From: Mycolicibacterium sp. MU0053
GTDB taxonomy: Bacteria; Actinomycetota; Actinomycetes; Mycobacteriales; Mycobacteriaceae
DNA: 64,000 bases
Assembly (NCBI RefSeq): GCF_963378095.1
Contig: NZ_OY726397.1
Coordinates: 1,984,001-2,048,000 of the forward strand
Direction: 5' to 3'
The translations under genes were made by a program, and so were the position numbers. Of this stretch, positions 6,762-27,589 are shown in pieces. Position 1 is the stretch's first letter, and each line of letters opens with the position of its first letter. The notes beneath the pieces were generated by a model. That model saw only the letters and a list, made by a program, of their open reading frames with translations. It was not told the origin of the DNA and did no database searches.

Positions 6762-6991
6762 ACGGGGACGAGATTCTGATCGTAGGATCGCAAGTGAAAA
6801 TAGGTTGTCTTCGCTGGGCTGTAGATCTTCTCAAGCACACGAGAGAGGCGAGGAACACGCCAGTAAAACCCCACCGCCGAGGCGGCCGGGTGCTTGTGCA
6901 TAGAGTGTCATTCGAGGCACGGGTTTGGGCGTCCCGGTTGGCAAAGCGTCCGCCAACCGAGCAAACCTCCGTCGTTCGGGAGGAAGTATGA
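6758..6991 (+). CDS. Small coupled ORF, 77 residues, function unknown
   Basis: This short frame begins with a GTG overlapping the helicase stop (GTGA) and ends with a TGA overlapping the BrxE start (ATGA). It fills exactly the only gap between the helicase and the BREX genes. The first half looks protein-like (MNGDEILIVGS, then CLRWAVDLL); the second half is rich in arginine and proline. No domain is recognised. It may be a genuine small subunit, the remnant of a longer gene, or a leader that keeps ribosomes moving from the helicase into brxE. The double four-base overlap is the main evidence that it is translated. Confidence 0.45.
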   Translation: MNGDEILIVGSQVKIGCLRWAVDLLKHTREARNTPVKPHRRGGRVLVHRVSFEARVWASRLAKRPPTEQTSVVREEV

Positions 6992-7542
6992 GGGAGGTTG
7001 GCACCCCCCAGGCCGGGGTGACTGAGGCAATCCGGCTGGTTCTCGGTATTGCGCGCCTCGGCGAGCAGGGCCTTAGGGGTTGGTGGCGCTCGCATGGCCT
7101 CGGAAAGGGCGGCCAGTACGTGCTCTCGACCGCTTTTCCACGAACCGCCAAGTCAGCGGCGCTTGAGCTTGACATCGTGTCCGCCGCGCGGCGGCACGAC
7201 GATCTCCTCGGACGGCAGACCGCTTTGCACCTCTTCTCGAGCGCATTTCCTTTTCGACGCTGGGCGGAGGCGTGGCTCGCCGAGCAGAAGACGCTGGCGC
7301 CCGATGCGCTGTTTGATGTACTGGTGAGCTGGGATCTTGAAAATGCCCTGACTTCCTTACGAGATTGGGCAGGCGACGCGCCAGTTGGTGAACCAATTGG
7401 CGAGGGATTGCTTCTTGGACAGCTGACCGATGAAGAACTTATGAATGACGAATCTTCGCTCACTTACGCAAAGTTGCTTGCTGCGGCATACCTCGCTCAA
7501 GACTCGAACCTTCGACCGCCGTACTTCGACCTCAAGCATTGA
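6988..7542 (+). CDS. brxE: BrxE-like BREX protein
   Basis: A 184-residue protein at the head of the BREX genes. The N-terminal pattern ARLGEQGLRGWWRS, followed within 20 residues by AFPRT, resembles BrxE, a small protein of unknown role described from BREX type 6. Position directly before brxA and brxB agrees with that family's gene order. The ATG at 6988 has a strong ribosome-binding site (GGGAGGAAG) and overlaps the preceding small ORF (ATGA). An in-frame upstream start at 6925 would overlap that ORF more deeply and lacks such a site. The stop (7540-7542) is 32 bases before the preferred brxA start. Family call is moderate because it rests on a short motif and synteny. Confidence 0.6.
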   Translation: MREVGTPQAGVTEAIRLVLGIARLGEQGLRGWWRSHGLGKGGQYVLSTAFPRTAKSAALELDIVSAARRHDDLLGRQTALHLFSSAFPFRRWAEAWLAEQKTLAPDALFDVLVSWDLENALTSLRDWAGDAPVGEPIGEGLLLGQLTDEELMNDESSLTYAKLLAAAYLAQDSNLRPPYFDLKH

Positions 7543-7574
7543 TGTTTACCGTCAACATTCAAAAGGGCGGAGCG

Positions 7575-8294
7575 ATGCTCGATGACACCCGCCACCTCGC
7601 AGAAGTGTGGGATGACGACCTTGATGCCGCCCAGAACTTGAGTCGGATCGCGGCAGGAAACCTGCTCGGTAAGTCGTCACGGAAGCGATCAGACGACGTG
7701 CTGCTCCGGATATTGTCGCCGCGATTCGTTGCACCCGGCCCAGACGTGTTGCGGGCCGTACGCGGGCTTCGTGACGACCCCAGGGCCTTCCGAGAAGCGT
7801 GTTACTACGAGACCGCCCGTGACGAAACACTCCTGGCGGCGTTTGCCGAGGGTCCAGTCTTCGACTGGTACAGCGCAGGCCGAATAGGTGTCAGTATCGA
7901 CGACGCAAAACAGTGGCTGGAAGCGCTCACCAAAGACGGAAGTCTTCCGGTGTGGACCGACACTGTCCGCACGAAGGTTGCACGCGGGTTACTTGCTGCA
8001 ATGCGGGACTTCGGAATACTCAAAGGTGCCGTACATAAGGAGTTCAACACGCCTGGTATGACACCAAAGGGCTTCGCCTACGTGGCTTTCCGTGAGCATC
8101 AGCAGCAAGTTTCTGCGCGGGCACTTCTTGAGAGCCCGATTTGGCGTCGGTGGCTTTTGGACGACATATGGATCAGCGACCTGCTCACACAGGTAGACCG
8201 ACTGGGACTTCTTCACTATTCGCGTGCCGGCTCTGCGGTTCGTATCGACTGGAAAGCTTCGGATCTTCAGGAGGTAGTCAATGTCCCTGCCTGA
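7575..8294 (+). CDS. brxA: BrxA (DUF1819 family) BREX protein
   Basis: A 239-residue protein matching the BrxA/DUF1819 family in length, helical content and position. BrxA is a small DNA-binding BREX component; in type 1 systems it sits first, before brxB. The C-terminal part has the run of aromatic and basic residues typical of the family (SPIWRRWLLDD, then LLHYSRAGSAVRIDW). ATG 7575 is preferred because GGGCGGAG lies just upstream. Alternative ATG 7542 overlaps the brxE stop by one base (TGATG) but has no clear ribosome-binding site; it would add 11 residues. The 3' end overlaps brxB by 14 bases. Confidence 0.72.
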   Translation: MLDDTRHLAEVWDDDLDAAQNLSRIAAGNLLGKSSRKRSDDVLLRILSPRFVAPGPDVLRAVRGLRDDPRAFREACYYETARDETLLAAFAEGPVFDWYSAGRIGVSIDDAKQWLEALTKDGSLPVWTDTVRTKVARGLLAAMRDFGILKGAVHKEFNTPGMTPKGFAYVAFREHQQQVSARALLESPIWRRWLLDDIWISDLLTQVDRLGLLHYSRAGSAVRIDWKASDLQEVVNVPA

Positions 8295-8868
8295 ACCGCT
8301 TCTCGGCATCGGTAAACGTGTTGTGGAGCATTTCGATGACGGTGGGGATCCGCCGTTTCAGCTGTACGTGTACAAACCCACAGCCGAATGGGAGGTTCGG
8401 GCAGAACTGGAAGACCTCCGTCTTTGGTTCGGCGCTGCAGGCCGCAACGTGAACGTCGCGGCCGTGTCGCTGGCCCGCCTGTTCTGGGCAGCGTTGGAGG
8501 ATGCCGGCTGGTTGGAGTCAGTGATCACAGCTGAACGAGACGCCGGCGGGGACCCGGAGGCGCTCTCGGAGGTTTACGCGTCAGTGGGAGAAGTCCTTCG
8601 AGACGAGCCAAGCCTGCCCGACCGTGTCAGAGCCGAACTGGCGGATGTCGATGATCGGACCGCAGTGTTTTTGTATCGCGCTGGATCCCTTTACCCCGCC
8701 TACCGAACGTCTTCGTTGCTCGATGATCTGCGGACAGATCTGAAGCTTCCGGTGACACTTCTGTACCCCGGCAAGGTAGTCGGTGAGTTTGGACTCAGCT
8801 TCATGAGTTGTTGCGAGCCTGCCTACGGATACCGCGCACGAATCGTTCCCCGAGGAGACACCGAATGA
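8281..8868 (+). CDS. brxB: BrxB (DUF1788 family) BREX protein
   Basis: A 195-residue protein with the DUF1788 signature. Near the C-terminus it has FLYRAGSLYPAYRTSSLL followed by PVTLLYPGKVVGEFGLSF, the pattern seen in BrxB, where a presumed nucleotide-fold core ends in a conserved Pro-Gly turn. BrxB is needed for BREX methylation and defence; its biochemical role is not settled. The ATG at 8281 sits seven bases after AGGAGGT, inside the end of brxA, and the stop overlaps brxC (ATGA). Confidence 0.78.
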   Translation: MSLPEPLLGIGKRVVEHFDDGGDPPFQLYVYKPTAEWEVRAELEDLRLWFGAAGRNVNVAAVSLARLFWAALEDAGWLESVITAERDAGGDPEALSEVYASVGEVLRDEPSLPDRVRAELADVDDRTAVFLYRAGSLYPAYRTSSLLDDLRTDLKLPVTLLYPGKVVGEFGLSFMSCCEPAYGYRARIVPRGDTE

Positions 8869-11800
8869 AAATAGTTGAACTCTTCAGACGCGACATTGCC
8901 CGTGACATTCCTGAAGTCATTCACGTCGATGCGGTGAACCGAGTTGCTGAGGAGATCGACGAGTACGTTGCTACTCGTCACATCAAAGAGCAGCTTGAGG
9001 AAGTTCTCGAAAACTATCAAGAAACCATTCTCAAGCCCACTGAGGATACCAACGTTTGGGTTAGCGGATTCTTCGGTTCGGGCAAGTCGTCGTTCGCCAA
9101 GATGCTCGGATACCTGGCCGAGAATCCATCCATCGAGGGCCGGACAGCGCTGGAGCGGTTCAAGGAGCGGGTGGACGCCCCGCGGATCGAGGCGCTGCTG
9201 AACGTCGCGCATGCCCAAGCGGCGGCGTTCAGCGTCTTTTTGGACATGTCGACAAGCCGCAACGTCGCCAGAGAAGGCGAAAGCATCGTCCTCCCGCTCT
9301 ACCGGGCTCTCCTAGAGCGGTTCGGCTACTCGCGCAATCTACTGCTCGCAGAACTCGAATACGATCTGGAAACTGACGGCGATCTGGCCGCTTTCCAAAA
9401 AGCGTTCGCGCAGGTCTCGAAGGGAAATCGTGCGTGGATCGAGCGACGTGACGTCGGCTTCGCAAAGAGCGAGGCGAGCCATGCTCTACATATTCTCCGT
9501 CCCGACAAGTATCCGGACGTCGACTCATGGGCAAAGCAAGCGGAATCCGTTGAGGTCACGGCTAACTGGTTTGCAGAGCGTGCACTGAGCTTGTTGGAAC
9601 GTCGAGGGGATGGCCGCAAGCGTTTGGTCTTCATCGTGGACGAAGTTGGCCAATATGTAGCCCGCAGCATCAGCCGCATGCTGGACCTGCAGGGCCTCGC
9701 CGAGGCGATGCAGAAGCGTCGGGGTTCGCTCTGGCTGGTCGTAACATCTCAAGAGCGGCTCGAAGACGTCCTCGACAGTCTGGAAGGCAAGCGCGTCGAA
9801 CTAGCTAGGGTTCAGGATCGTTTCCCGATTTCGGCTGATCTCCTGCCAGGTGACATCAAAGAGGTCACTAGCCGCAGAGTGCTCGAGAAGACGTCGACGG
9901 GCCGCGAAGAGTTGCGTTTCCTATTCACGAAAAACCGCAATAAACTTCTCGCGCACACCCGTTTAGAGTCGGCCACGCGGTCCGATACGCCATCCGAGGA
10001 TGATGTCCTCAGCTTGTACCCGCTGGTTCCGTACCAGGTGCAGGTACTTATCGATGCAATCTCGGCGCGTCGAGCACACGGCGGTGCATCGCCAATCCTT
10101 GGCGGCTCAAATAGAACGATCATCAAGCTCGCGCAGGTACTGGTGACCGACCCGAAAGCCGGCCTGGGTGAACATCCTATGGGCGATTTGGTCACGATCG
10201 ATCGTGCTTACGACCAACTCGAAAGTGTCATCCCGACCGCGTGGCAGAGCGAAGTCGAGCAAGTGACGTCAAAGTATGGCCAGGACAGCATCGAGGCGCA
10301 GGTGATTAAGTCGGTAGCCTTGTGCAGCGACGTTGGCGCACTCTCATTGACTGCCGAGAACATCGCCGTACTGCTTCACCCCGCGATCACTGCAGAATCG
10401 GTGCTGTCCGAAGTCCGTGAGGCGCTCGACCACTTGGTCGTCGATGATCGGATTCGTCTCGGCGACGATGGCTACCAATTGCAATCCGCAGAGCAGAAGG
10501 ACTGGGAAAAAGCACGCCGGCAGATCGACCTTCGCCCGGCCGAGGCCACGCGCATTCGCAGACTTATCGTCAAGGAAGGTCTGGCGGGCTTGACCGTCAC
10601 GAGAGGGCGGGTTTTCAAGGTTGAAGTCACCGTCGAAGGTGAGAAGTTGACGGACGGTGACATCGCCCTTCACATCGAAGAGGCGGACGCGGGCCGCCGT
10701 TCAGACCTGCGCAGCCTGTCGCGCGAAGCTGCGGCAAAGACTCGACTGACGTGGGCCTTCGAAGAATCTCCCGATACCTACGAGGCAATCCTTGAGCTTC
10801 ACCGCAGTCGGTCCATGATCGAGCGGCGCGACACGCCCTCTAAGACTGTCGCCGAAGTGGAGCTATTGGGTGAGGAGCGAGTTCGTCAGACACGGTGGGA
10901 GCGCCTCGTCGCGGAGCGGTTGGCGCGCGACCTGACCGGCGGACAAATAATTTTTCGAGGGACGTCAGAGGATGCGCCAGCGGCGGCACTGCGCTCCGCG
11001 GCCCAGCAGGCTGTTTCGCGACACATCGACGACATCTACGAGCGCATCGACCAGTTCTCCGCGAATGTCACTGGCCGGGATGTCCTCGCCGTCCTTCATG
11101 CCGACAATCTTGACGGGATCTCCCCTCAACTGCGGGAGGACGGCATCGGGGTCACGCACTCAACGTCTCAAGGAGAGCAGGTCGTCACCGACCGCGACCC
11201 GCTACTGGCTCTTCTGACCGAAATCAGGGACCGCGCGGCCTACGGCAACGAGGCGACCGGTAGGCACCTCGAGACGTTGTTTTCGGGACCGCCGTACGGA
11301 GCTCCGGTTGAGGTCATCCAAGCAATTTTGGCGGCCGGCATCCGCGCGGGCCTTGTTGACGTAATTCACCAAGGTTCACGGATCCGAGGTAGTGCGGATC
11401 AGCGGCTTGACCGAGTGTTCGGCGCTCTACCGCAATTCAGAGCCGCCTCGTTTGTGCCGCCTGTGGACGACGAGGTTTCCCTCGAAGTTCGTGTTGATCT
11501 CGCCGAGCGGCTGGGGCAGTTGATCGGTACTCGCCCGCCCGTGGCGACTGACCAACTAGCAGCACTCGTCCGGTCAACGTTCGTGTCGGATACGCAAATC
11601 GCAAGCCGCGTGACTGCTGGGCTCCGCGGGCTCGGACTCAAAGTGCCTGAGCCCGTCACTCGGGCGTCCGCGGTACTTGAGCGGCTGGACGATGCGTCAG
11701 ACGCGGAGGTCGTTACTACAACCGTCCAATCTTGGGTAGATCTCGCGGCTGGGCGAGAGGCGCTTGTTGCACTGGACACCGTTGTGCAACAGGATCTCGA

Positions 11801-12350
11801 GACGTTGCGCAGTGCTCAGTCGGCGGCCAGAGCGGGCGATGAGGGACTCGCGTCAGATCTTGCTACGGAGCGTCTTGAACTCGTCGATCTACTTGGCGCG
11901 GAGGATCTCCCGGCTCACATCGCCAGGATCCGTGCAATCACAGAGCGCCTCGTTGTCGCCAGACTCTCAGCTATCGAATCCGCGAACGCAGAGCTGAAGG
12001 TAAAAGTCGCAGAGAAGTCTCGGCAGATCCGTGTGCAGTATGCAGACGTAAACGCCGCTGTCCTTGACGAAGCGCTGAGACCGCTCGAGGAGTTAGTGCC
12101 TACTGGGAGCGCTGTAGAGCACGCGCTCGGTCAACTCTTAGCCAAAGCCGAAGCAGTTGACACCCGCGCGATCAAGGTCGCTCGACAACTCGATGAGATC
12201 GTCGCGAAGGGCAAAGTCGCTCACCTCGTCATCCACGATCTCGTCACGAAACCCCTGACCACCGAAGACGAATTGGACACCGCGCTCGAACGAGTGCGGG
12301 ATGCTGCGGCAGCTGAGCTGGCAAACGGAAAGCAGGTGCGCTTCACATGA
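8865..12350 (+). CDS. brxC: BrxC/PglY-type BREX P-loop ATPase
   Basis: A 1161-residue AAA-type ATPase. The Walker A motif SGFFGSGKSSFAKML lies at residues ~67-80 after a conserved N-terminal region (DIPEVIHVDAVN). A hydrophobic strand ending LVFIVDEVGQY near residue 260 is the likely Walker B. The C-terminal third is acidic and alpha-helical, consistent with a long coiled-coil or scaffold region. BrxC (called PglY in Pgl systems) is the large ATPase core of BREX and is required for phage exclusion and host methylation. The ATG at 8865 overlaps the brxB stop (ATGA); a frame extension to 8808 lies inside brxB and is not needed. The 3' end overlaps pglX by four bases. Confidence 0.9.
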   Translation: MKIVELFRRDIARDIPEVIHVDAVNRVAEEIDEYVATRHIKEQLEEVLENYQETILKPTEDTNVWVSGFFGSGKSSFAKMLGYLAENPSIEGRTALERFKERVDAPRIEALLNVAHAQAAAFSVFLDMSTSRNVAREGESIVLPLYRALLERFGYSRNLLLAELEYDLETDGDLAAFQKAFAQVSKGNRAWIERRDVGFAKSEASHALHILRPDKYPDVDSWAKQAESVEVTANWFAERALSLLERRGDGRKRLVFIVDEVGQYVARSISRMLDLQGLAEAMQKRRGSLWLVVTSQERLEDVLDSLEGKRVELARVQDRFPISADLLPGDIKEVTSRRVLEKTSTGREELRFLFTKNRNKLLAHTRLESATRSDTPSEDDVLSLYPLVPYQVQVLIDAISARRAHGGASPILGGSNRTIIKLAQVLVTDPKAGLGEHPMGDLVTIDRAYDQLESVIPTAWQSEVEQVTSKYGQDSIEAQVIKSVALCSDVGALSLTAENIAVLLHPAITAESVLSEVREALDHLVVDDRIRLGDDGYQLQSAEQKDWEKARRQIDLRPAEATRIRRLIVKEGLAGLTVTRGRVFKVEVTVEGEKLTDGDIALHIEEADAGRRSDLRSLSREAAAKTRLTWAFEESPDTYEAILELHRSRSMIERRDTPSKTVAEVELLGEERVRQTRWERLVAERLARDLTGGQIIFRGTSEDAPAAALRSAAQQAVSRHIDDIYERIDQFSANVTGRDVLAVLHADNLDGISPQLREDGIGVTHSTSQGEQVVTDRDPLLALLTEIRDRAAYGNEATGRHLETLFSGPPYGAPVEVIQAILAAGIRAGLVDVIHQGSRIRGSADQRLDRVFGALPQFRAASFVPPVDDEVSLEVRVDLAERLGQLIGTRPPVATDQLAALVRSTFVSDTQIASRVTAGLRGLGLKVPEPVTRASAVLERLDDASDAEVVTTTVQSWVDLAAGREALVALDTVVQQDLETLRSAQSAARAGDEGLASDLATERLELVDLLGAEDLPAHIARIRAITERLVVARLSAIESANAELKVKVAEKSRQIRVQYADVNAAVLDEALRPLEELVPTGSAVEHALGQLLAKAEAVDTRAIKVARQLDEIVAKGKVAHLVIHDLVTKPLTTEDELDTALERVRDAAAAELANGKQVRFT

Positions 12351-15300
12351 GTAGCGCACTGGATCATCAGGCGCGCAATGCTTTTGATCGGTTCATTCAG
12401 CAAGCTCGCCGTCTACTCGAGGCCGATCTGGCCCGGGAGGCGGAAGGGCGGTACGGAATCCATGCCGTCGACGGCGAGATCGAAGATGAAAAAGACCTCC
12501 ACCTTGATCCGACGGGCCTCAGCGCCCGCCGGGACATCGTTGACGTGCTCGACTTCCTCCGCCGTGAGGAGGGTTCACACGCTAGCGCCGCCGGTCGATT
12601 GATTCGAGAGGCCACATTTACGCACCTCAATCGATTGATCGCAATTAGGATCGCCGAAGAGGTTGGTCTTCTTCCGCAGTCGCTTTCTGAAGGTTCCTCC
12701 TCGACGGGATTCAAGGACCTATTGGAGGTAGCCCCACTTCTTTCACGCGAAAAATCTGGTGGATACTGGCTTTACCTCAGGCTTTGCGGTGACGAACTAG
12801 CCGCGGACCTGCCCCAACTCTTCGATCCGCGAAATCCTCTACTAGGTCTCGAACCGTCGGCAGCGGCGTTCGACGATGTCGTCACACTGATCCGCAGCGC
12901 GGAGCTCCGAGAAGTGTGGGACGCACCCGACACACTTGGGTGGGCTTACCAATTCTTCAATACTGGCGACGAGAGGCGCGCTATGCGCGATGAGTCGCAG
13001 GCCCCTAGGAATTCGCGTGAACTCGCCGTGAGGAATCAATTCTTCACTCCTCGGTACGTGGTGGATTTTCTTGTCCAGAACACGCTCGGCCGAAGGCTTA
13101 TGGAGGCCAGTCCAAGTCCTGAGCTTCAGGCAGCGCTGCCGCTACTAATTGACCCACCAACTCAGCCAGGGACACCCCTCGCGTTGGATGACGTAAAGGT
13201 CATGGATCCGGCTTGCGGGTCCGGGCATTTCCTGCTCGGCGCCTATGACGTGTTGGAAGCCGCTTGGACGATCGAGGGCGTGACTCCGCGAGACGCCGCA
13301 CCCCAGATTCTCGCATCGCTCTGGGGAATCGATATCGATAGCCGGTGCGCCCAGATAGCTGCTGCCGCTTTGACTTTCCGCGCCTCCCGACACAGGACGG
13401 TCGAAAAGCTGCCCACTCCGAACATCGTCACCGCGCGAGCACTGCCCGAAGCCACGTCAGAGGGGACTGCGCTGCTGTCCTCTCTTCCGAGCAGCCGGGC
13501 CCGGCTCGTTGCCTCAGTGCGCGATGCACTGCAAGGTGCGCCGGGACTCGGACCGCTGTTGAAAGCCGAACAAATACTCTCATCCGAGATCACATCACGC
13601 GTCCCTGGTGCGGACCGGGACACGTCGACACTCTTCGGGCACAGTGGCAGCGATGAGGACGCGTACGGTGAGGCCGAGGCCCAAGTCTTAGAAGTCCTCC
13701 ACCGCTTAGCTGACAGTGCGACATCAAACCCAGCAGACCGGTTATTCGCCGCCGAAGCGGAGGATGCGATCCGCTTCGTGGAGGCTCTGCGCAACCGCTA
13801 TGACGCGGTGCTGATGAATCCGCCATTCGGTGCCAGTGCGCTGCAAGCCGAAACTTACCTTCGGAGCGATTATCCGCTTTCCTGGACTGAGTTATATGCA
13901 GTGTTCTTTGAGCGTGCCATAGATCTACTCTCGTCCGATGGCTGTGTAGGTGCACTCACGTCTTCTCAATACTTGACGACCAAACGTCTAGCGGGGTTCC
14001 GAAGCCGATTGCTGAGAGAAAGCCGTCCTCTCGCTATCTTGGATCTCGGAGGAGGTGTATTGCACGGCGCAACGGTAAACACCGCGATAACAGTCATTCC
14101 GAAAACTAGAACGACCGGCTCCACCTTCTACTGCGACTTGAGTTCATTTTCCCCGGAGGCAAAGGCGTCGGCCCTTGCCACTGGAGAAATGCCAATTACT
14201 CAGTACAATTTAAACAGCTTCTCTTCAATTCCAAATTCTCCTTTTGCGCTGCATATGCCAGATTCGGTGGTATCCATGTGGCAGCATGGCGAGAGTCTTG
14301 AGCCTTCACTTGCAGTAGTCCGGACCGGTCCTAAGAGCTTTGATGACTTTCGGTTTCTACGGGCGTGGTGGGAGATTCCGCCCATGCGCCTTGCCGAGGG
14401 ATGGAAGCGCTACTCGAAGGGGGGAGAATTCTGTCCTTACGTCTCGTATTCACATCTCCTGATCGATTGGCGAGCCGACGGGGCGACGTTGCGCGCCTAT
14501 GGTGAGGAGACAGGCAGACTCGCCCAGGTGTTGCAGTCGTCGGCAAATTGGGACCGGTCTGGCCTGTGTTACCCAAGAATGAGCAGCATTGGTTTCGCGG
14601 CGCGCGCTCTCCCCGCAGGCGAGATCTTCGGGGAGAAGAGTATCGCAATCTTGCCCAACGCCGACGTGTCGGCGATACGCCTGATGGCACTCTTAAATTC
14701 GACTGCAGCCGCCGAAATGCTGCAGATATTCGGCCGCGGCCGCGCGACGGAGAATGGGGCCGTCAAATCACTTCCTTTTGGAACGGAGTTTCTCACTCGG
14801 CTGTCCAGCGTTGATGAACCGGTTGAGGAACTGATCGAGCTATTTGACACAGCAGAGGCAGCTTCCGAGCTATCGAGCACTTTCGAATTCCCCGCGATGC
14901 TAGGGATTGCTCGGAAAGATGCGGCGAATTGGATCAGCGGTCGAACATCACGCGCGGAGGAACTGCAGCGCAAGGTCGATGATGCAGTGGCCGCCGCGCT
15001 GGGAGTCCAGCGAATGGACCCGATGACGCCAGACCGTTCAGAGCTGATTCGGCGGGCATTTCCAGACGTCCAGAATGCCGACGTCCTCTGGGCGGAAGAG
15101 ACCATATCGTATCTGGTCGGTCTCGCCTTCGGGCGGTGGGACGCTCGAAAACCCGGAGCCTGTCGACAGGCCCAGGGCAGAGGGGACGTATTTCAACGGC
15201 TTCCAGATTTTCCGCCGGGAATGCTTCGTGGAGCCGACGGTCGACATCCGGCCGATCGAGTGAGCGATTATCCCTTGCAGTTGCCACTATCTCACACACT

Positions 15301-15925
15301 GGTAGACGAGCCCCAGCATCAGTGGGACATAGTGGACAATGTGATGGATGCTGCTCGGGTCATGTACGAAGACGAGTATGAAACGGTCATTTCCGACGTC
15401 CTAGATGCGTTAGGCGACTCATCGCTTCGCACTCATTTGCGGGGTCCCTTCTTCAAATCACACTTGAAGCGGTATTCCAAGAGCCGTCGAAAGGCACCCA
15501 TCTACTGGCCATTAACGATTCCGTCTGCAAAATGGGGTGTCTGGGTGTACACACCTGCGATCTCTAGAGAAACTCTGTACCTCATCTCGTCGGAGGCGAA
15601 ACGGCGTGCGGCCTTTTCGGAGGCTGAGGTCGATCGGTTGGAGCGTGAGAAGGCTGGAGGCCAATCCCCAAGGAGTACCGGTCAGCTAGGTCGTGCCCTC
15701 GATGCCGAGCGCAACCTAGCTGAGGAATTACGGCAGTTCCGCGACGAAGCGGATCGTATTGCTAATCTCGGCTGGGCCCCAGACCTGTCCGATGGCATCG
15801 CCCTGTGCGCTGCTCCGTTGGCAAGCTTATTTCCTGCTTGGAGGGATTGTTCGCGGTACCGTGATGAGTTGCGAAATGGCCAGCATAAATGGGCACATGT
15901 CTCAAAATGGGCTGAGGAACTGTGA
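12347..15925 (+). CDS. pglX: PglX BREX adenine-specific DNA methyltransferase
   Basis: A 1192-residue N6-adenine methyltransferase. The SAM-binding motif is DPACGSGHFLLGAYDVL near residue 287 and the catalytic NPPF motif is LMNPPFGAS near 490. Between them is an insert of about 150 residues rich in Ala and Ser. The long C-terminal part should carry target recognition. PglX methylates one strand of a non-palindromic site and so marks host DNA as self. ATG 12347 overlaps the brxC stop (ATGA). The junction with pglZ is GAGGAACTGTGAC, which supplies both a ribosome-binding site and a GTGA overlap. The methyltransferase core looks intact, with no frame break. Confidence 0.92.
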   Translation: MSSALDHQARNAFDRFIQQARRLLEADLAREAEGRYGIHAVDGEIEDEKDLHLDPTGLSARRDIVDVLDFLRREEGSHASAAGRLIREATFTHLNRLIAIRIAEEVGLLPQSLSEGSSSTGFKDLLEVAPLLSREKSGGYWLYLRLCGDELAADLPQLFDPRNPLLGLEPSAAAFDDVVTLIRSAELREVWDAPDTLGWAYQFFNTGDERRAMRDESQAPRNSRELAVRNQFFTPRYVVDFLVQNTLGRRLMEASPSPELQAALPLLIDPPTQPGTPLALDDVKVMDPACGSGHFLLGAYDVLEAAWTIEGVTPRDAAPQILASLWGIDIDSRCAQIAAAALTFRASRHRTVEKLPTPNIVTARALPEATSEGTALLSSLPSSRARLVASVRDALQGAPGLGPLLKAEQILSSEITSRVPGADRDTSTLFGHSGSDEDAYGEAEAQVLEVLHRLADSATSNPADRLFAAEAEDAIRFVEALRNRYDAVLMNPPFGASALQAETYLRSDYPLSWTELYAVFFERAIDLLSSDGCVGALTSSQYLTTKRLAGFRSRLLRESRPLAILDLGGGVLHGATVNTAITVIPKTRTTGSTFYCDLSSFSPEAKASALATGEMPITQYNLNSFSSIPNSPFALHMPDSVVSMWQHGESLEPSLAVVRTGPKSFDDFRFLRAWWEIPPMRLAEGWKRYSKGGEFCPYVSYSHLLIDWRADGATLRAYGEETGRLAQVLQSSANWDRSGLCYPRMSSIGFAARALPAGEIFGEKSIAILPNADVSAIRLMALLNSTAAAEMLQIFGRGRATENGAVKSLPFGTEFLTRLSSVDEPVEELIELFDTAEAASELSSTFEFPAMLGIARKDAANWISGRTSRAEELQRKVDDAVAAALGVQRMDPMTPDRSELIRRAFPDVQNADVLWAEETISYLVGLAFGRWDARKPGACRQAQGRGDVFQRLPDFPPGMLRGADGRHPADRVSDYPLQLPLSHTLVDEPQHQWDIVDNVMDAARVMYEDEYETVISDVLDALGDSSLRTHLRGPFFKSHLKRYSKSRRKAPIYWPLTIPSAKWGVWVYTPAISRETLYLISSEAKRRAAFSEAEVDRLEREKAGGQSPRSTGQLGRALDAERNLAEELRQFRDEADRIANLGWAPDLSDGIALCAAPLASLFPAWRDCSRYRDELRNGQHKWAHVSKWAEEL

Positions 15926-18420
15926 CAAGTTCACTCCGATTGCAGATCAGATCTGAGCTTGAGAGGGCTGTGCGCCAGGCCGGCGTGGTCGTATGGCAGG
16001 ACGAGCACCATGAATACGCTGGCGCCGCAAGGTCGATCTCGCCTGCGAACGTACCATTCGTTGCGTACGAAGGAAGTTGGTACGCAGTGCGCTGGGAGGT
16101 GGAACACCTACTCGCTTCTGAGAAGCCGCCCCAGTTGGTCGTTTATGCGTCGGCGCCCACGCCGGCTGACGACCCGCTGGCCGAGATTCGAGCACTCAGC
16201 AAGCAGTTCAAGCACCGCCTTTCTACCCTGGTTCGTCAGTCGCTCTCAGGTCAGCTAGCAGTGGCCCGCATCGACCAGATCGCGCGCGATGCAAGAACTT
16301 TGGACGAGGCGGAAGCCGCAGTCGGCGGAAGCGGCGCGGCGGATGTCCGCCTGATGAGCATCCTTGGTAGCGATGACAGCGTGCAGATGGCCCTAGCAGT
16401 GCTTGACGGCAGTAAAGACGACACAATCGATCGCGAAAATGTATGGACTGACGTCGCGAAAATGTTGGGCGACTCGTTTGGCGGCGTGCCCTCGGGCGCA
16501 CGCGATGAACTGAGAAGCTCCTTCGCGCAGCAGATTCTGCTGTCTGAAGTGGCACAAGCGGCAGGAGGACTTACGGCAGACCTATCGTCGGTATGGGCTC
16601 CGCCGACCGCAGATCAACGCCGTCGCGCGGATGCCCTACTCCAAACCTGGCGCTATGCGCCGAAATGGCGCGCGACGTATCGGGACCTCGCTATCCACAT
16701 AGACCAACAGCTAGACTTAAAGTCTGTACTCGTTTGGTCCGATGGCCTAAACGGCTGCTTCACCACGCCGTCAATCGAATCATTATGTATGACAGAGGTG
16801 GCACGGCAACTCGAAGCGGGTGACTTCGACGCCGCGAGCGTGTTGGCCGAACAACGCCTTGTAGCTGGAAACCCCTGGCGCGACGAACGCCCAGGCCAAT
16901 CGTCAACACGCTGGAGTGACCAGTGGAGGGCTGTGCGTGCGGTGACGGGTCTGCATCGCTCGTTGCAACACCACACCGTTCCATCGGGCGCACTTCCCGC
17001 GATACTCGATTGGTATGTGAGCACGGCACACTCAGTCGATCATGCGCACCGCCACCTAGAGCTTGCGCGCGGCGCGTTGGCGTCTCACGGAATCCTGGAG
17101 CAGCACATCGCGAAAGTGCGCGTTGCGTACGAACAGTGGGTCGATACCGTCGCGAGAGCCGTCACACTAAACTTGTGTCAGAACGGCTTGAGTGGAGTCA
17201 CACAGATTCCACAGGGCGAAATACATGACCGTTTCGTCAAGAACGCCGACGGACCAACGGCCTACATATGGGTGGACGCACTCCGCTATGAATTGGGCGT
17301 TGAACTTGTCGAAGCCATCCAGAGCGACATCAGTGAGCACGTGTCGCTCTACGCGGCGACGGCGGGAGCGCCGACCATTACCAAGGTCGGAATGACGAAC
17401 CTCCTGCCTGCAGCCGCCGAGCGGCTCAGCGTCGAGATCGACGACGGCCGGTTGTCGATCGCGATCGGCGAACGCGAGGTTTCGACCGTCGAACACCGCA
17501 TTGAGCGGCTGCGCGCTGCGCATGGGCCAGTTGCGAACCTCGACCTCGGGTCAGTAAGCCAACAGGGCGAGACGGAACTTAAGAGAGCGGTCAAGAATGC
17601 AAACCTCGTGCTCGTCCGCAGTCAGGAGATCGACGCCGCAGGCGAATCTGGTCTGCTGAATACTGCTTGGCCGCAGTTCGAGGCGACCAAGCAGGACCTG
17701 GCCAACGCCGTGGCCAAGCTCGGCCAGGCTGGCATTCGGCGCGTCGTTATCACGGCGGATCACGGATTTGTTGCACTGAGTCAATCCGTGGGAGACCCTC
17801 GGACCATAGACGCACCGATTGGGGGTGACGGTGAATTACACCGACGGTGCTGGGTTGGCAAGGGTGGAACCACCGCGGACGGCACGGCGCGGATTGCTCT
17901 TGCCGAACTCGGCATCCGAAGTGATCTCGACATTATCGTGCCCAAGGGACTGGCGGTGTTCAAAGCCGGTGGCGGAAAACAGTTCTTTCACGGTGGTCTT
18001 TCGGCTCAAGAGTTGATCACCCCAGTCATCGTCGTGGACTTGGAACCCGTTCAGCAGCCCCATAAATTGGACATATCGGTCACCATTGCGGGTGGGCGAA
18101 TCACCACGGGCGTATTCGCAGCCACCGTCGAGTTCCTCGGAGACTTGTTCACCGATGCCGTCACCTTCCGCGTGGTCGTTCGTGGAGGCACCGAAAAGGA
18201 GTCCGTCGCCCGCGTGGTGTCGGGGGATGGATACGACCCTGAGTCGGGGTCGGTGACCATTGCGCCCGGAAGGCCGACCGTCCTTACCTTCCAAGTAGTT
18301 TCAAACCTGCAACGGAACTCGCAGATCGAGCTTCAGGTGGTTGATGCCCGCACCGGCCGGCGAATCGCTGAATCGATCACGCCAGTGGCCGCTTCGATCA
18401 TTGTTGAGGAGGAACTGTGA
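15922..18420 (+). CDS. pglZ: PglZ alkaline-phosphatase-superfamily BREX protein
   Basis: An 832-residue protein with a central PglZ domain. The metal-binding entry motif TAYIWVDALRYE lies near residue 446 and the second metal site RVVITADHGFVAL near 607; both are hallmarks of the alkaline phosphatase fold in this family. The C-terminal ~120 residues are beta-rich (DLEPVQQPHKLDI onward), like an immunoglobulin-type add-on. PglZ is essential in every BREX type and is thought to act with PglX; its substrate is unknown. It starts at GTG 15922 overlapping pglX, and the GTGA junction with the next gene repeats the same GAGGAACTGTGAC sequence context. Confidence 0.9.
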   Translation: MTSSLRLQIRSELERAVRQAGVVVWQDEHHEYAGAARSISPANVPFVAYEGSWYAVRWEVEHLLASEKPPQLVVYASAPTPADDPLAEIRALSKQFKHRLSTLVRQSLSGQLAVARIDQIARDARTLDEAEAAVGGSGAADVRLMSILGSDDSVQMALAVLDGSKDDTIDRENVWTDVAKMLGDSFGGVPSGARDELRSSFAQQILLSEVAQAAGGLTADLSSVWAPPTADQRRRADALLQTWRYAPKWRATYRDLAIHIDQQLDLKSVLVWSDGLNGCFTTPSIESLCMTEVARQLEAGDFDAASVLAEQRLVAGNPWRDERPGQSSTRWSDQWRAVRAVTGLHRSLQHHTVPSGALPAILDWYVSTAHSVDHAHRHLELARGALASHGILEQHIAKVRVAYEQWVDTVARAVTLNLCQNGLSGVTQIPQGEIHDRFVKNADGPTAYIWVDALRYELGVELVEAIQSDISEHVSLYAATAGAPTITKVGMTNLLPAAAERLSVEIDDGRLSIAIGEREVSTVEHRIERLRAAHGPVANLDLGSVSQQGETELKRAVKNANLVLVRSQEIDAAGESGLLNTAWPQFEATKQDLANAVAKLGQAGIRRVVITADHGFVALSQSVGDPRTIDAPIGGDGELHRRCWVGKGGTTADGTARIALAELGIRSDLDIIVPKGLAVFKAGGGKQFFHGGLSAQELITPVIVVDLEPVQQPHKLDISVTIAGGRITTGVFAATVEFLGDLFTDAVTFRVVVRGGTEKESVARVVSGDGYDPESGSVTIAPGRPTVLTFQVVSNLQRNSQIELQVVDARTGRRIAESITPVAASIIVEEEL

Positions 18421-20447
18421 CCAATCCGATGGACGAGCTCGACCGGAAATCTAATGACGTGTTCGCCGGTCGCGTGGTGCGCAAGGATCTAGTGCGTCAG
18501 GTCAAGGTTGGCGCCAACGTCCCTAACTACGTTCTCGAGTTCCTGCTAGGCAAGTACGCGGCATCAGACGACCCGGCGGCAATCGCGACAGGGCTCGAGG
18601 TCGTGCGTAGCACACTCGCTGACAACTTCATCCGCCCAGACGAATCGGAAAAGGCGAAGGCTGAACTCAAACGACGCGGGCAGTTCCGCCTAATTGACAA
18701 GGTCGACGTACGGTTGCTCGCAAGTGAAGACAAGTACTGGGCGCACCTCTCGAACTTCGGTGAGAAGTTCATCCACATTCCGGACGATCTAGTCTACAAG
18801 TATGACCGTATGCTGGGCGGTGGCGTCTGGTCGCAACTGGACCTCGTCTACAACGCAACCGATGACGACACGACCAAGCGCCCATTCTTCATCAAGGCCT
18901 TGAAACCCATTCAAGTCGCCGCGTTCTCAATGGATGAGTATGCCGACGGCCGGAGGCAATTCAGTCGGGATCAGTGGCTAGATCTGTTGATGCGGACGAT
19001 CGGCCTCGAGCCCGACGAGTACGACTTTCGTGGCAAGCTGCTCGCGCTGACACGACTTATTCCGATGGTGGAACGCAACTTCAACCTCATTGAGCTTGGC
19101 CCATGGGGGACGGGTAAATCGTTCGTGTATCGAGAGTCATCACCCAACGCAATCCTCATTTCGGGTGGCAAGGTGACCGTACCCCAATTGTTTGTGCACA
19201 TGGGCACTGGCCGCGTCGGACTGCTCGGGATGTGGGATGTCGTCGCATTCGACGAGGTTGCCGGTCTCGAGATGTCCGATTCCACAGTGGTCAACATGCT
19301 CAAGGATTACATGGAGTCCGGGTCATTCGCCCGAGGCAAAGAGGAGACACCAGCCGAGGCTTCGATCGTCCTGATCGGCAACACCAGCAAGCCACACCAG
19401 GAACTCATCAGGACCGCGCATCTGCTAGCGGACCTGCCGAAGGCGATGATCGACCCCGCCTTCATCGACCGCCTGCACTTCTATTTACCCGGTTGGGAAG
19501 TGCCAAAACTCGAACACCGACTCTTCACTGACCATTATGGCTTCGTGTCCGACTATTTCTCAGAAGCTATGCGCCAGTTACGAAAGCGCTCATATGTCAG
19601 CGCGATCGATGCTGACTTCTCACTGGGCGATCATCTGAGCGCTCGAGACGAAAAGTCTGTTCGTAAGACAGTCTCCGGGCTCATTAAACTGCTTCATCCG
19701 CACGAAGAGTGGACTCGCGGGGAGCTGCGCGCGTACCTCGAGTTTGCAATGGAGGGACGACGCCGGATCAAAGAACAACTGAAGAAGCTTGCAGCGCACG
19801 ACTACGCGAAGACCGCCTTCTCCTACATAGAGAGGGACACCGGCAGGGAGTATTGGGTTGAGGTGCCAGAGCAACCCGATGACATCGAACTTGAGATTGC
19901 CGGCGGGACGGCCACCAGCGGCCGAGCAATTGATGAGGTGGCGGAACCGCTGGCACTGAACACGACTGAACTCATGTCAAACGGTGAGAGCAAAAAGGTC
20001 GAGTTCAAGTCCTCTGCGACCTTCGACTGGGAAACCGGGAAGAAAAACAAGGAATTGGAGTTTTCTATCGCGAAAACCGTCGCTGGCTTTGCAAATTCAC
20101 ATGGCGGAACTCTGCTGATTGGAGTGAATGACGACGGTGAGGCCGTCGGCCTCGTCGACGACTTTCGACTGGCGAGCCAGAAGCGCCAGGACGCTGATGG
20201 TTATGAAAATTGGTTGACTTCGATGCTTGCGGAAAGTCTAGGGAAGGTCGCCACGACGTACTTGAGTGTGTCCTTCGATGAAGATAATGGGCACAATATA
20301 TGTCGGGTGGATGTGACCCCTTCTAAGGTGCCGATCTTCATCCGTAGCCAGAAATCGCGTGGGGATTTTTATGTCCGCCTGAGCAACTCGACCAGATTGC
20401 TCAACACCGCTGAGGCGATGGAATACATCAAATCTCACTGGGCCTGA
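18417..20447 (+). CDS. BrxL-like AAA+ protein with C-terminal AlbA_2 (Schlafen) domain in place of Lon protease
   Basis: A 676-residue protein. Residues 1-~500 match the N-terminal and AAA+ parts of BrxL: Walker A LIELGPWGTGKS near 228, Walker B WDVVAFDEVAGLEM near 272, then an arginine/lysine-rich helix GRRRIKEQLKKL near 446. BrxL, the DNA-associated ring ATPase of BREX types 1 and 4, normally ends in a Lon-like S16 peptidase domain. Here no Ser-Lys Lon motif is seen. From ~517 onward the chain is instead a clear AlbA_2 domain: SKKVEFKSS, then FANSHGGTLLIGVNDDGEAVG and a terminal FYVRLSNSTRLL. AlbA_2 is a nucleic-acid-binding fold found in Schlafen proteins and in several defence genes. GTG 18417 overlaps pglZ (GTGA). 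BrxL identity of the front half is strong; the functional consequence of the swap is unknown. Confidence 0.85.
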   Translation: MTNPMDELDRKSNDVFAGRVVRKDLVRQVKVGANVPNYVLEFLLGKYAASDDPAAIATGLEVVRSTLADNFIRPDESEKAKAELKRRGQFRLIDKVDVRLLASEDKYWAHLSNFGEKFIHIPDDLVYKYDRMLGGGVWSQLDLVYNATDDDTTKRPFFIKALKPIQVAAFSMDEYADGRRQFSRDQWLDLLMRTIGLEPDEYDFRGKLLALTRLIPMVERNFNLIELGPWGTGKSFVYRESSPNAILISGGKVTVPQLFVHMGTGRVGLLGMWDVVAFDEVAGLEMSDSTVVNMLKDYMESGSFARGKEETPAEASIVLIGNTSKPHQELIRTAHLLADLPKAMIDPAFIDRLHFYLPGWEVPKLEHRLFTDHYGFVSDYFSEAMRQLRKRSYVSAIDADFSLGDHLSARDEKSVRKTVSGLIKLLHPHEEWTRGELRAYLEFAMEGRRRIKEQLKKLAAHDYAKTAFSYIERDTGREYWVEVPEQPDDIELEIAGGTATSGRAIDEVAEPLALNTTELMSNGESKKVEFKSSATFDWETGKKNKELEFSIAKTVAGFANSHGGTLLIGVNDDGEAVGLVDDFRLASQKRQDADGYENWLTSMLAESLGKVATTYLSVSFDEDNGHNICRVDVTPSKVPIFIRSQKSRGDFYVRLSNSTRLLNTAEAMEYIKSHWA

Positions 20448-21463: not shown

Positions 21464-21653
21464 CCCCGAACCGCAAGCGCAGCGCCGTGACGATGCTGCG
21501 TGAACGGTTCGGGGTCTCCGAACGGCGAGCCTGCACGGTCGTGGGCATCCACCGCTCCACGATGCGCCTGACGCCGACGCCGATCACCGATGAAGAAGCC
21601 GAGCTGCGGGCCTGGCTGCGCACGTTCTCCACCGACCGGCCACGCTGGGGATG

Positions 21654-21699
21654 GCGACGAGCCGCGGTGATGGCCCGCAAGGCCGGCTGGGCGGTCAAC
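21654..21699 (+). repeat. 46-bp target-site duplication, left copy
   Basis: The 46 bases from GCGACGAGCCGCGG to GGGCGGTCAAC are repeated exactly at 23463-23508, on the other side of the IS1634-family element. IS1549-type elements are known for unusually long and variable target duplications. Confidence 0.9.
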
Positions 21700-23462
21700 C
21701 TGAGTTTGGACACCTCGGTCGGTTCTCGCGCGTGTTAGGTCTTTGAACTGGGCTTTCTTTGGTGTGGGTGGGTGTTTGGGGGTACTAAACCTGTAGGTTC
21801 GTGCGGTGGCGTACGTGCGGAAAGTGCGCACTGCCTCGGGCGCGGTGGCGGTGCAGGTAGCGCGCAAAGACCAGGGTCGGGTGCTGATCCTGGCGCATCT
21901 GGGTTCGGCGCATACCGATGCTGAACTGGGCATTCTGCTGGAGCAGGCCAGGGCGATGGTGCTCGGTGGCCAGGTGGCGCTGGATTTCGAGGTGGCAGCG
22001 CGGGCCCAGTCGATGGTCGATGTGGCCGATTTCCGTGAGCAGGCGTTGATCGCCGAAGGGCACAAGTCAACGGTCGCAGCGCCGGTGGTGCCGCCCGGGC
22101 GCACGGTCGGGGCCAGCTCACGACTGCTTTATGACGTCCTGGGCCACGTCTATGACTGGCTCGGGTTCGATACTGTTGCCGATGCGGTGTTCCGGGATCT
22201 GGTGATCGCACGGATCGTCGAGCCGACCAGCAAGCTCGACGCATCGCGGGTGCTGGCTGATCTCGGCGCCCAACTGGTGTCCTACAAGACCATTGACCGC
22301 CATGTCCGCAAGATCCATGCCGGCGGACATCGCGACGCTATCGCCGCGAAATGCTTCGCCTACGCCTCTGACTGCGGCGGGCTGTCGCTGATTTTGTACG
22401 ACGTGACCACACTGTATTTCGAAGCCGAAACCGAGGACTCCCTGCGCAAGGTTGGGTATTCGAAGGAACGCCGTGTCGATCCTCAAATTGTGGTCGGCCT
22501 GCTGGTGGACCGGACCGGATTCCCTTTGGAAATCGGCTGTTTCGAAGGAAACACCGCCGAAACCACCACCATCGTGCCGATTATCACTGGCTTTTTGGAA
22601 CGCCACGACCTCAAGGGCACGCCGATGGTGGTGGCCGCCGACGCGGGGATGCTCTCGCAGACCAACCTCGCCGCGCTCGATGAGCACGAGCTGTCGTTCA
22701 TCGTCGGCTCCCGCGTCACCAAGGCGCCCGGTGATCTGGAGTCCCATTTCCATTGGCACGGTGATGTTTTCACCGACGGTCAAATTATCGATACCGTGAC
22801 ACCGCGGCACGGCAACACCACGGTCAACAACACCAAGCTTCGGGCCGAGCCGGTCTGGGACCCCGAGAGCAGCACTGGTGCATGGCGTGCGATCTGGTCC
22901 TACTCAGCCAAACGCGCGCGCCGCGACGAGAAAACCCTCGCCGCCCAGGAAGCTCGAGCCCGGGCGATCGTCGACGGAAGCAAAGCAGCCAAGGCAGCAC
23001 GATTAGTGAAAGTCCGTGGCCACGACCGCGTCGTCGACGAAACCAGCCTGGCCCGCGCCCAATCACTGGTCGGACTCAAAGGCTACGTAACCAATGTGCC
23101 AGCAACGGTCATGCCGGCAGCCGAGATCATCGCGAAGTACCACGACCTCTGGCACGTCGAGAAGTCGTTCCGAATGTCCAAAACAGACCTCGACGCGCGG
23201 CCCATGTTCAACCGCATGCGCGATGCCATCGAAGCCCACCTGACCATCGTGTTCGCCGCCCTGGCCGTCTCCCACGCCACCCAGTCACGCACCGGACTGT
23301 CGATCGCCAGGGTCGTCAAGAAGCTTCGGCCGCTGCGCAGCGCCACCATCACCATCAACGGTGCCACCCAGACCTTCCCGCCAGCAATTCCCGACATCGA
23401 GCACAAAATCCTGTCCGATCTTGGCTTCAACCCTGGGTACTAAGCGAAATGTCCAAACTCAG
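21700..23462 (+). mobile_element. IS1634-family (IS1549-like) insertion sequence
   Basis: A 1763-bp element with perfect 12-bp terminal inverted repeats, CTGAGTTTGGAC at 21700 and GTCCAAACTCAG ending at 23462, and exact 46-bp target duplications on both sides. It carries a single intact transposase gene. Perfect ends and an identical duplication indicate a recent insertion. Confidence 0.92.
21806..23443 (+). CDS. IS1634-family transposase (IS1549-like)
   Basis: A 545-residue DDE transposase of the IS4/IS1634 superfamily. The first catalytic Asp is in LILYDVTTLYFEAE near residue 198, the second in VVAADAGMLSQ near 276, and the third region, with WHVEKSFRMSKTDL and the catalytic Glu, near 450. 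GTG 21806 is used as start (MAYVRKVRT), about 100 bases inside the element. The gene is full length with no frame break, so the element is probably still mobile. Confidence 0.92.
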   Translation: MAYVRKVRTASGAVAVQVARKDQGRVLILAHLGSAHTDAELGILLEQARAMVLGGQVALDFEVAARAQSMVDVADFREQALIAEGHKSTVAAPVVPPGRTVGASSRLLYDVLGHVYDWLGFDTVADAVFRDLVIARIVEPTSKLDASRVLADLGAQLVSYKTIDRHVRKIHAGGHRDAIAAKCFAYASDCGGLSLILYDVTTLYFEAETEDSLRKVGYSKERRVDPQIVVGLLVDRTGFPLEIGCFEGNTAETTTIVPIITGFLERHDLKGTPMVVAADAGMLSQTNLAALDEHELSFIVGSRVTKAPGDLESHFHWHGDVFTDGQIIDTVTPRHGNTTVNNTKLRAEPVWDPESSTGAWRAIWSYSAKRARRDEKTLAAQEARARAIVDGSKAAKAARLVKVRGHDRVVDETSLARAQSLVGLKGYVTNVPATVMPAAEIIAKYHDLWHVEKSFRMSKTDLDARPMFNRMRDAIEAHLTIVFAALAVSHATQSRTGLSIARVVKKLRPLRSATITINGATQTFPPAIPDIEHKILSDLGFNPGY

Positions 23463-23508
23463 GCGACGAGCCGCGGTGATGGCCCGCAAGGCCGGCTGGG
23501 CGGTCAAC
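23463..23508 (+). repeat. 46-bp target-site duplication, right copy
   Basis: Exact second copy of 21654-21699. It duplicates 15 codons of the interrupted IS3 orfB. Confidence 0.9.
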
Positions 23509-27459: not shown

Positions 27460-27589
27460 ACGCGTGACATCAGCGTAGGCCTCGGTGTCACAGCCCGCTG
27501 CTAGGGTGCCAACCGTAGGAAAGCTGGGGGGATATGGACATTAGATCGTTGGGCCACGCAGGCAGCGTCTCGTGCCGGGAGCCGTACTG

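Follow-up and report, generated by a model that had tools for sequence, protein, structure and literature searches.

The brxL gene and its operon

We analyzed a 64,000-nucleotide stretch of the genome of Mycolicibacterium sp. MU0053 (contig NZ_OY726397.1, positions 1,984,001 to 2,048,000; hereafter the window), which carries a bacteriophage exclusion (BREX) operon whose last gene encodes a BrxL protein with an unusual C-terminal domain. The operon has the order brxE-brxA-brxB-brxC-pglX-pglZ-brxL, with all genes on the forward strand and overlapping open reading frames (Table 1). The BREX setting proposed in the first-pass annotation of this DNA is borne out by Pfam, NCBIfam and PADLOC models, and the occurrence of BrxA, BrxB, BrxC, PglX, PglZ and BrxL in one operon marks the system as type-1-like BREX, here accompanied by BrxE.

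The same annotation read the N-terminal and AAA+ parts of the last protein as BrxL, and both parts match the corresponding Pfam families (PF20442 and PF13337) far above the cut-offs. Both Walker motifs are present: Walker A (GPWGTGKS) occupies residues 228-235, and the Walker B glutamate E280 aligns with the residue mutated in the E280Q structure (PDB 8EMH). The last ~160 residues had been assigned to AlbA_2 instead of the S16 protease, and they indeed match SLFN_AlbA_2 (PF04326, 5.9e-17; 62.7 bits, curated cut-off 25.3). A Pfam scan of the 676-residue protein (E<=0.01) found no family beyond BrxL_N, BrxL_ATPase and SLFN_AlbA_2, and specifically no Lon domain (PF05362); a local Lon-tail profile gave no match to the tail either, and neither search met an S16 domain with a Ser-Lys dyad. 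The absence of a Lon match is meaningful, since the same Pfam library detects Lon_C (4.9e-22) in a control BrxL, L085, and an overlooked Lon domain was rejected on these grounds. Thus the searches with Lon_C and AlbA_2 profiles, which had been put forward as the ones able to overturn the assignment, both came out in its favor.

Family-wide models agree with this architecture. TIGR02653 (NCBIfam; 697.2 bits, cut-off 628.25) is matched over positions 2-483 of 675 and the PADLOC BrxL model over positions 4-490 of 680 only, and these early ends indicate that the usual C-terminal domain is missing. The structure of Acinetobacter BrxL aligns to window residues 6-487 and no further. The E-values rule out a chance match, as do 112 further proteins of the same architecture among the best 120 of 187 database hits, and it is near certain from these comparisons that the window protein is a BrxL with a C-terminal AlbA_2 domain.

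Table 1. Features of the BREX operon and of the BrxL-AlbA_2 protein (window positions)
Feature	Position	Strand	Details
brxE (BrxE family)	6925..7542	+	NF033447, 105.8 bits, cut-off 40
brxA	7539..8294	+	PF08849, 1.8e-18
brxB	8281..8868	+	PF08747, 2.7e-14
brxC (predicted start)	8808..12350	+	NF033441, 608.5 bits, cut-off 400
pglX (BREX adenine methyltransferase)	12347..15925	+	PADLOC PglX 4.8e-212; Pfam Eco57I
pglZ	15922..18420	+	PF08665 6.3e-15; PADLOC PglZ 2.3e-78
brxL-AlbA_2 fusion gene	18417..20447	+	single open frame, GTG start, 676 aa (translation)
BrxL_N, residues 15-145	18459..18851	+	Pfam PF20442, 1.8e-42
BrxL_ATPase (AAA+), residues 157-469	18885..19823	+	Pfam PF13337, 1.8e-126
Variable linker, residues 488-515	19878..19961	+	identity drops at ~481-500 in several relative pairs
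SLFN_AlbA_2, residues 524-662	19986..20402	+	Pfam PF04326, 5.9e-17; same site in whole-genome search
Predicted Schlafen active site	19986..20132	+	E524 19986-19988, E529 20001-20003, K531 20007-20009, D572 20130-20132

The source genome (5.45 Mb, one contig) contains a single BrxL_ATPase match and a single AlbA_2 match, both within this gene. Three PPE-family matches in it exceed the cut-off, which agrees with a Mycobacterium-like actinobacterium. BrxL_ATPase was found in two of 61 near relatives searched, the genome of the window included, and the second copy, L105, also carries AlbA_2. The G+C content is 63.9% in the window, 56.7% in the BrxL core and 53.0% in the tail, and the lower values are in keeping with acquired DNA.

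Two overlapping genes lie just upstream of the operon. The first (118-2118) encodes a 666-residue product with no Pfam, NCBIfam or PADLOC match, and the second (2115-6761) a 1548-residue helicase matching Druantia DruE (2.6e-183); homologs of the two were not found beside other BREX loci, the upstream flank being readable at four of five. Downstream of brxL, an exact 47-base direct repeat (21653-21699 and 23462-23508, 1809 bases apart) surrounds a transposase-like open reading frame, followed by a defense-like gene with a PDC-S40 match (24956-25990) and a defense-like helicase (27572-30934) that includes regions resembling RNase H and PD-(D/E)XK.

Recurrence and probable exchange of BrxL tails

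A protein search with residues 485-676 returned 187 passing proteins, and 113 of the best 120, the window protein included, combine a BrxL core with AlbA_2; the remaining seven have AlbA_2 but no BrxL part, and GmrSD_N accompanies it in four. A genome search with a tail profile, from which the best 80 of 141 candidate loci were kept, yielded BrxL-AlbA_2 at 12 loci (11 in Actinobacteria of various groups and one in Gemmatimonadetes). PglZ is encoded directly upstream at nine of these, and PglX precedes PglZ in eight, namely in all whose contig extends far enough. Two of the other three are short (L004 starts within the gene and L007 has ~200 bases upstream); the third, L043, has ~1.8 kb upstream with no recognizable PglZ or other BREX protein of the window. 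Longer stretches were obtained for five BrxL-AlbA_2 loci, of which L115, L116 and L117 extend L003, L015 and L010 from among the nine with PglZ directly upstream, and L114 and L119 extend L105 and L096. All five preserve the order BrxA-B-C-PglX-PglZ-BrxL. BrxE is seen at four of them, the L114 stretch ending at BrxA; PglX is fragmented in L116 and L117, and L116 has a fragmented BrxC as well. A sixth longer stretch, L118, represents the locus of a Lon-tailed relative. The possibility of a one-off assembly fusion was rejected given the 112 other proteins among the best 120 of 187 and the gene order kept at the loci that were read.

A sample of 396 genomes from the same phylum contained 24 BrxL places, counting that of the window. 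Local profiles class their tails as AlbA_2 in seven, Lon-like in ten, HKD (phospholipase-D-like, PLD-like) in four and a protein kinase in one, with two too short to classify, so that AlbA_2 makes up 7 of 22 classifiable places, or 6 of 21 when the window is left out. The Lon-like and HKD labels are to some extent circular, because three of the ten Lon rows, with others, went into the Lon-like profile and all four HKD rows into the HKD profile; besides the window, the Pfam-checked phylum rows are L085, L089, L100 and L101. Class-level sampling around G206 (39 genomes) added no new BrxL place. Among 336 plasmid records matching BrxL, 40 of which were listed, one includes a place that spans 80% or more of the query; the tail matched 13 plasmid records, none with a BrxL annotation (H47 is without any annotation), and none of six matching phage records covers 80% of the query. 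There is therefore little support for spread of BrxL-AlbA_2 by plasmids or phages.

Several copies are irregular. L009 (6682-7479) begins like BrxA and continues into an AlbA_2 tail of BrxL type. This tail clusters with that of the L013 BrxL, a BrxE-like open reading frame lies next to L009:6682-7479, and the arrangement probably arose through a deletion within a BREX operon or an assembly error. L012 and L086, possibly from one genome, are BrxL-AlbA_2 copies with an internal stop codon in the AAA+ part.

The slot behind the AAA+ part also accommodates other domains. By Pfam, the L089 BrxL ends in the phospholipase-D-like domain MIT_C, and the BrxL encoded at L100 (1012-3480; P0244) ends in a Ser/Thr protein kinase (PF00069, 1.3e-33). 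In a search with residues 1-560 of the latter, a hand count of Pfam annotations found the kinase domain in 117 of the best 120 of 8000 scored proteins (P0246-P0365), the few named entries including Mycobacteriaceae, Micromonospora and Longimicrobiaceae. Among the 114 such proteins longer than 780 residues, HRD(I/V)KPQN occurs in 76 under a strict pattern that left 38 unmatched, and the LLDFN motif in 113. We found no description of a BrxL-kinase fusion in the literature searched; the cited passages of PMC12839542 place kinases elsewhere than on BrxL, in PglW and as histidine kinases beside Schlafen. The kinase and PLD-like tails support an exchangeable effector slot that takes up enzyme families. 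Among non-BrxL relatives of the tail (44 of 68 loci scanned), AlbA_2 is fused to GmrSD_N in 17 and occurs with a bacterial PH domain in three and with a response regulator in one; the tail relative L006 has an N-terminal stretch that by eye resembles membrane helices.

The history of the fusion was studied on a maximum-likelihood tree of 57 hand-selected BrxL cores with tails excluded, from which two of an initial 59 had been removed (L102x, with a branch length of 8.8, and P0030, the Rhabdothermincola sediminis BrxL, which equals L096x). The AlbA_2 label requires five changes on this tree, of which at least three are forced by well-supported branches, and three AlbA_2 sets among Lon-type cores are separate on the best tree. 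The AlbA_2 cores formed one clade in none of 200 bootstrap trees. The approximately unbiased (AU) test rejected both a tree with all AlbA_2 cores in one clade (p-AU 3.6e-6), and with it a single origin of the fusion, and a tree joining the window clade with the AlbA_2 clade that is sister to HKD-type cores (8.2e-8). The non-monophyly of AlbA_2 cores makes repeated gain of the tail probable, with the limit that counts of label changes alone cannot separate gain from loss. In a tree of the AlbA_2 domain itself (72 of 83 candidates, five named divergent sequences having been dropped and the others by a hit/envelope rule), two of the five sets, those around L101 and P0164, join other AlbA_2 proteins apart from the window set with moderate support, and the window set is itself not one clade, the L105 tail being placed elsewhere.

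Cores and tails were also compared within these sets. The window protein and L105, its closest core among the tree rows, are 87% identical in the core and 42% in the tail; the corresponding values are 97 and 56% for P0078-P0150 and 95 and 45% for P0164-P0173, and the pattern is reversed in P0041-P0045 (85 and 98%). The boundary is sharp: the window protein and L105 are 90% identical over residues 451-480 and 29% identical over residues 481-510, with a drop at the DNA level near position 19,900, and a break near residue 485 is present in some pairs with near-identical cores. In total, 27 AlbA_2 pairs have cores at least 85% identical, and in nine of them the tails are at least 25 points lower. 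Other comparisons complicate this picture: the tails in 8 of the 27 pairs lie at most 15 points below the core, or above it; the proteins nearest to the window outside the tree, P0003-P0012, have cores of 89-96% and tails of 73-87% identity, which is ordinary faster drift of the tail; and Lon-tailed pairs with similar cores also drop by 25 points in two of five cases. Taken together, these patterns make tail exchange likely in some lineages, with fast tail evolution contributing. The other sharply diverging stretch between two same-genus operons is the later half of pglX (13800-15700, compared with L114), as expected if target-recognition parts are exchanged.

Predicted active site and candidate mechanism

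A profile built from seven tails and run against solved structures matched SLFN14 best (3.8e-8; aligned-domain i-Evalue 1.3e-5), as well as the nuclease domain of rat SLFN13 (5YD0; 1.9e-5, domain i-Evalue 0.00045), SLFN11 (ranked after SLFN14), SLFN5 and SLFN12; the PDB entry CbCash was also met in this search. Counted along the printed alignment, tail residues E9, E14 and D57 (E524, E529 and D572 of the window protein) fall on residues 218, 223 and 261 of the 5YD0 chain, which correspond, at a constant offset of 13, to the catalytic E205, E210 and D248 of SLFN13. Mutation of any of these three lowers the tRNA-cleaving activity of SLFN13, and the E205A and E210A proteins are inactive (PMC5862951). 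In 170 BrxL-AlbA_2 rows, including a few duplicates, E524 and K531 are kept in all, E529 in 169 (one D) and D572 in 169 (a gap in a shorter protein). The triad is retained even between tails of near-identical cores that share only 45-56% identity, and its retention while many tails diverge elsewhere is the main reason for predicting catalysis: the near-invariant triad favors a catalytic RNase. Having both the AlbA_2 domain and the catalytic triad of Schlafen/AlbA_2 RNases, the tail is accordingly predicted as one.

The first-pass annotation had described the change as a peptidase swapped for a nucleic-acid-binding or processing module. The peptidase has to be given up, as the Lon-like tail of characterized BrxL has neither a protease motif nor a Ser-Lys dyad (PMC10164562, PMC12839542); the processing alternative stands and is sharpened by the near-invariant RNase triad.

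Some points count against reading the tail as a catalytic RNase of BREX. One of the 12 loci, L043, shows no recognizable PglZ in its ~1.8 kb of upstream sequence. Per-domain similarity to solved Schlafens is weak (i-Evalues of 1.3e-5 for SLFN14 and 0.00045 for SLFN13), and the tail holds a single AlbA_2 unit, as against the pseudo-dimeric U-pillow nuclease of SLFN13 (PMC5862951), though AlbA_2 units could possibly pair between BrxL subunits. In addition, the C-terminal domain of Acinetobacter BrxL pairs rings tail-to-tail at a distance from the DNA (PMC10164562), hence its replacement might be structural, and PF04326 is classed as a DNA-binding domain in work on prokaryotic Argonaute operons (PMC6299218). 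The last two observations favor a non-catalytic tail, that is, a nucleic-acid-binding or oligomerization module substituting for Lon-like ring pairing. Binding alone would not obviously need three acidic residues that are all but invariant amid strong tail divergence, and the other occupants of the slot belong to enzyme families (PLD-like, kinase); we therefore consider such a tail unlikely, while placing it first among the alternatives.

By analogy with the HKD tail of other BrxL proteins, the AlbA_2 tail might instead be a DNase and cleave phage DNA as it passes through the BrxL ring. BrxL encircles double-stranded DNA (PMC10164562), an HKD DNase tail is present in 1030 of 2913 type-1 BrxL taxa (PMC12839542), and the core tree places HKD-tailed cores as sister to one AlbA_2 clade. 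Against this, SLFN13, which has the same triad, was assayed on RNA and on single- and double-stranded DNA and prefers tRNA (PMC5862951), and we rank a DNase as doubtful, after the non-catalytic tail.

The preferred reading, which we regard as evenly balanced between right and wrong, is that of a type-1-like BREX BrxL whose C-terminal domain was exchanged for a single-unit Schlafen endoribonuclease, activated by the ring and providing a tRNA-cutting second layer of defense. Characterized BrxL forms ATP-dependent paired rings with a wide chamber on double-stranded DNA (PMC10164562), and the Lon-like domain does not define the family, as type-4 BrxL is without it and in HKD variants another domain takes its place, according to the cited passages of PMC12839542. 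Separate Schlafen-like proteins are known to form a trimeric nuclease, PUCH (PMC10567574). From the published BrxL rings, SLFN13 tRNA cleavage and PUCH assembly we infer an RNase on a DNA-loaded ring. With the other BREX proteins, the N-terminal and MCM-like AAA+ parts would assemble in an ATP-dependent manner as a ring on incoming DNA that is unmodified; assembly of the ring would gather six or twelve AlbA_2 domains, as separate Schlafen-like proteins are gathered in PUCH; and the gathered domains, activated by DNA loading, would cut structured RNA, most likely tRNA. Such cutting would halt translation in infected cells, with an abortive outcome, as a second layer beside DNA restriction.

The same RNase could also be directed at the BREX transcript or at phage mRNA near the bound genome, so as to regulate or focus the response without killing the cell. 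A ring tethered to DNA would have nascent phage transcripts nearby, which is a purely inferential argument, while RNA targets are not distinguishable from sequence; we hold this version to be very improbable.

More broadly, we tentatively propose, with somewhat less confidence than for the tRNA-cutting BrxL itself, that BrxL may serve as a polymorphic effector scaffold, in which a DNA-loaded AAA+ ring carries tails grafted by recombination (inert Lon-like, PLD-like DNase, Schlafen RNase or Ser/Thr kinase). Through the Schlafen form, BREX would respond to unmodified phage DNA by cleaving tRNA and shutting down translation, as a prokaryotic counterpart of Schlafen antiviral immunity.

Prior descriptions and comparison with known systems

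The first-pass annotation did not know of a description of this fusion. No report of a BrxL-Schlafen fusion was found in the literature searched, including the available parts of PMC12839542, PMC10164562 and PMC12707154; it is not unique, recurring in many Actinobacteria and some other bacteria. In PMC12839542, the most complete survey, 'AlbA' is absent from the main text, the named BrxL tails are Lon-like and HKD only, and Schlafen RNases appear as separate neighboring genes; its supplements may still mention BrxL-AlbA_2. Pfam annotation in public databases already contains the BrxL/AlbA_2 domain pair, and such proteins, where they are named, go under Lon-related or ATP-dependent Lon protease.

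Neither the way BREX defends against phages nor the part played by BrxL is agreed upon, and a BrxL with a predicted RNase allows a direct test of BREX action through the triad. The arrangement is common to many relatives and hints at a way in which certain BREX systems might affect infected cells. BrxL would be a general platform for DNA-triggered effectors if its tails can be exchanged, and a protease-like name would then be misleading; if the RNase prediction is true, a bacterial restriction-like immunity would be tied to the antiviral Schlafen RNases of animals.

The closest structural reference is Acinetobacter BrxL (PDB 8EMC and 8EMH), which shares the N-terminal and AAA+ parts over residues 6-487 and the aligned Walker B glutamate, and differs in the C-terminal domain, Lon/RadA-like without a protease motif there (PMC10164562) and AlbA_2 here. 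HKD (PLD-like) BrxL likewise has a nuclease at the same position in place of the inert Lon-like domain (PMC12839542); however, its nuclease comes from an unrelated family and is described as acting on DNA, whereas that of the window protein is predicted to act on RNA. Schlafen RNases with histidine-kinase and winged helix-turn-helix (wHTH) domains beside BREX are also BREX-linked and have been proposed as backup effectors, although in the cited passages of the survey they are separate genes with no BrxL domain (PMC12839542). Among non-BrxL proteins, GmrSD_N-AlbA_2 proteins are among those with an AlbA_2 closest to the window tail, their partner being the GmrSD (DUF262) restriction domain and not BrxL. 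SLFN13 and SLFN14 have a domain of the AlbA_2 type, and their E/E/D triad follows the same order within the same motif context, but they are two-lobed animal proteins, while the window tail is one AlbA_2 unit on an AAA+ protein. Finally, PUCH resembles the proposed assembly in deriving an active RNase from separate Schlafen-like domain proteins (PMC10567574); it is a piRNA-processing complex of worms, whereas the window protein would use the BrxL ring for its assembly.

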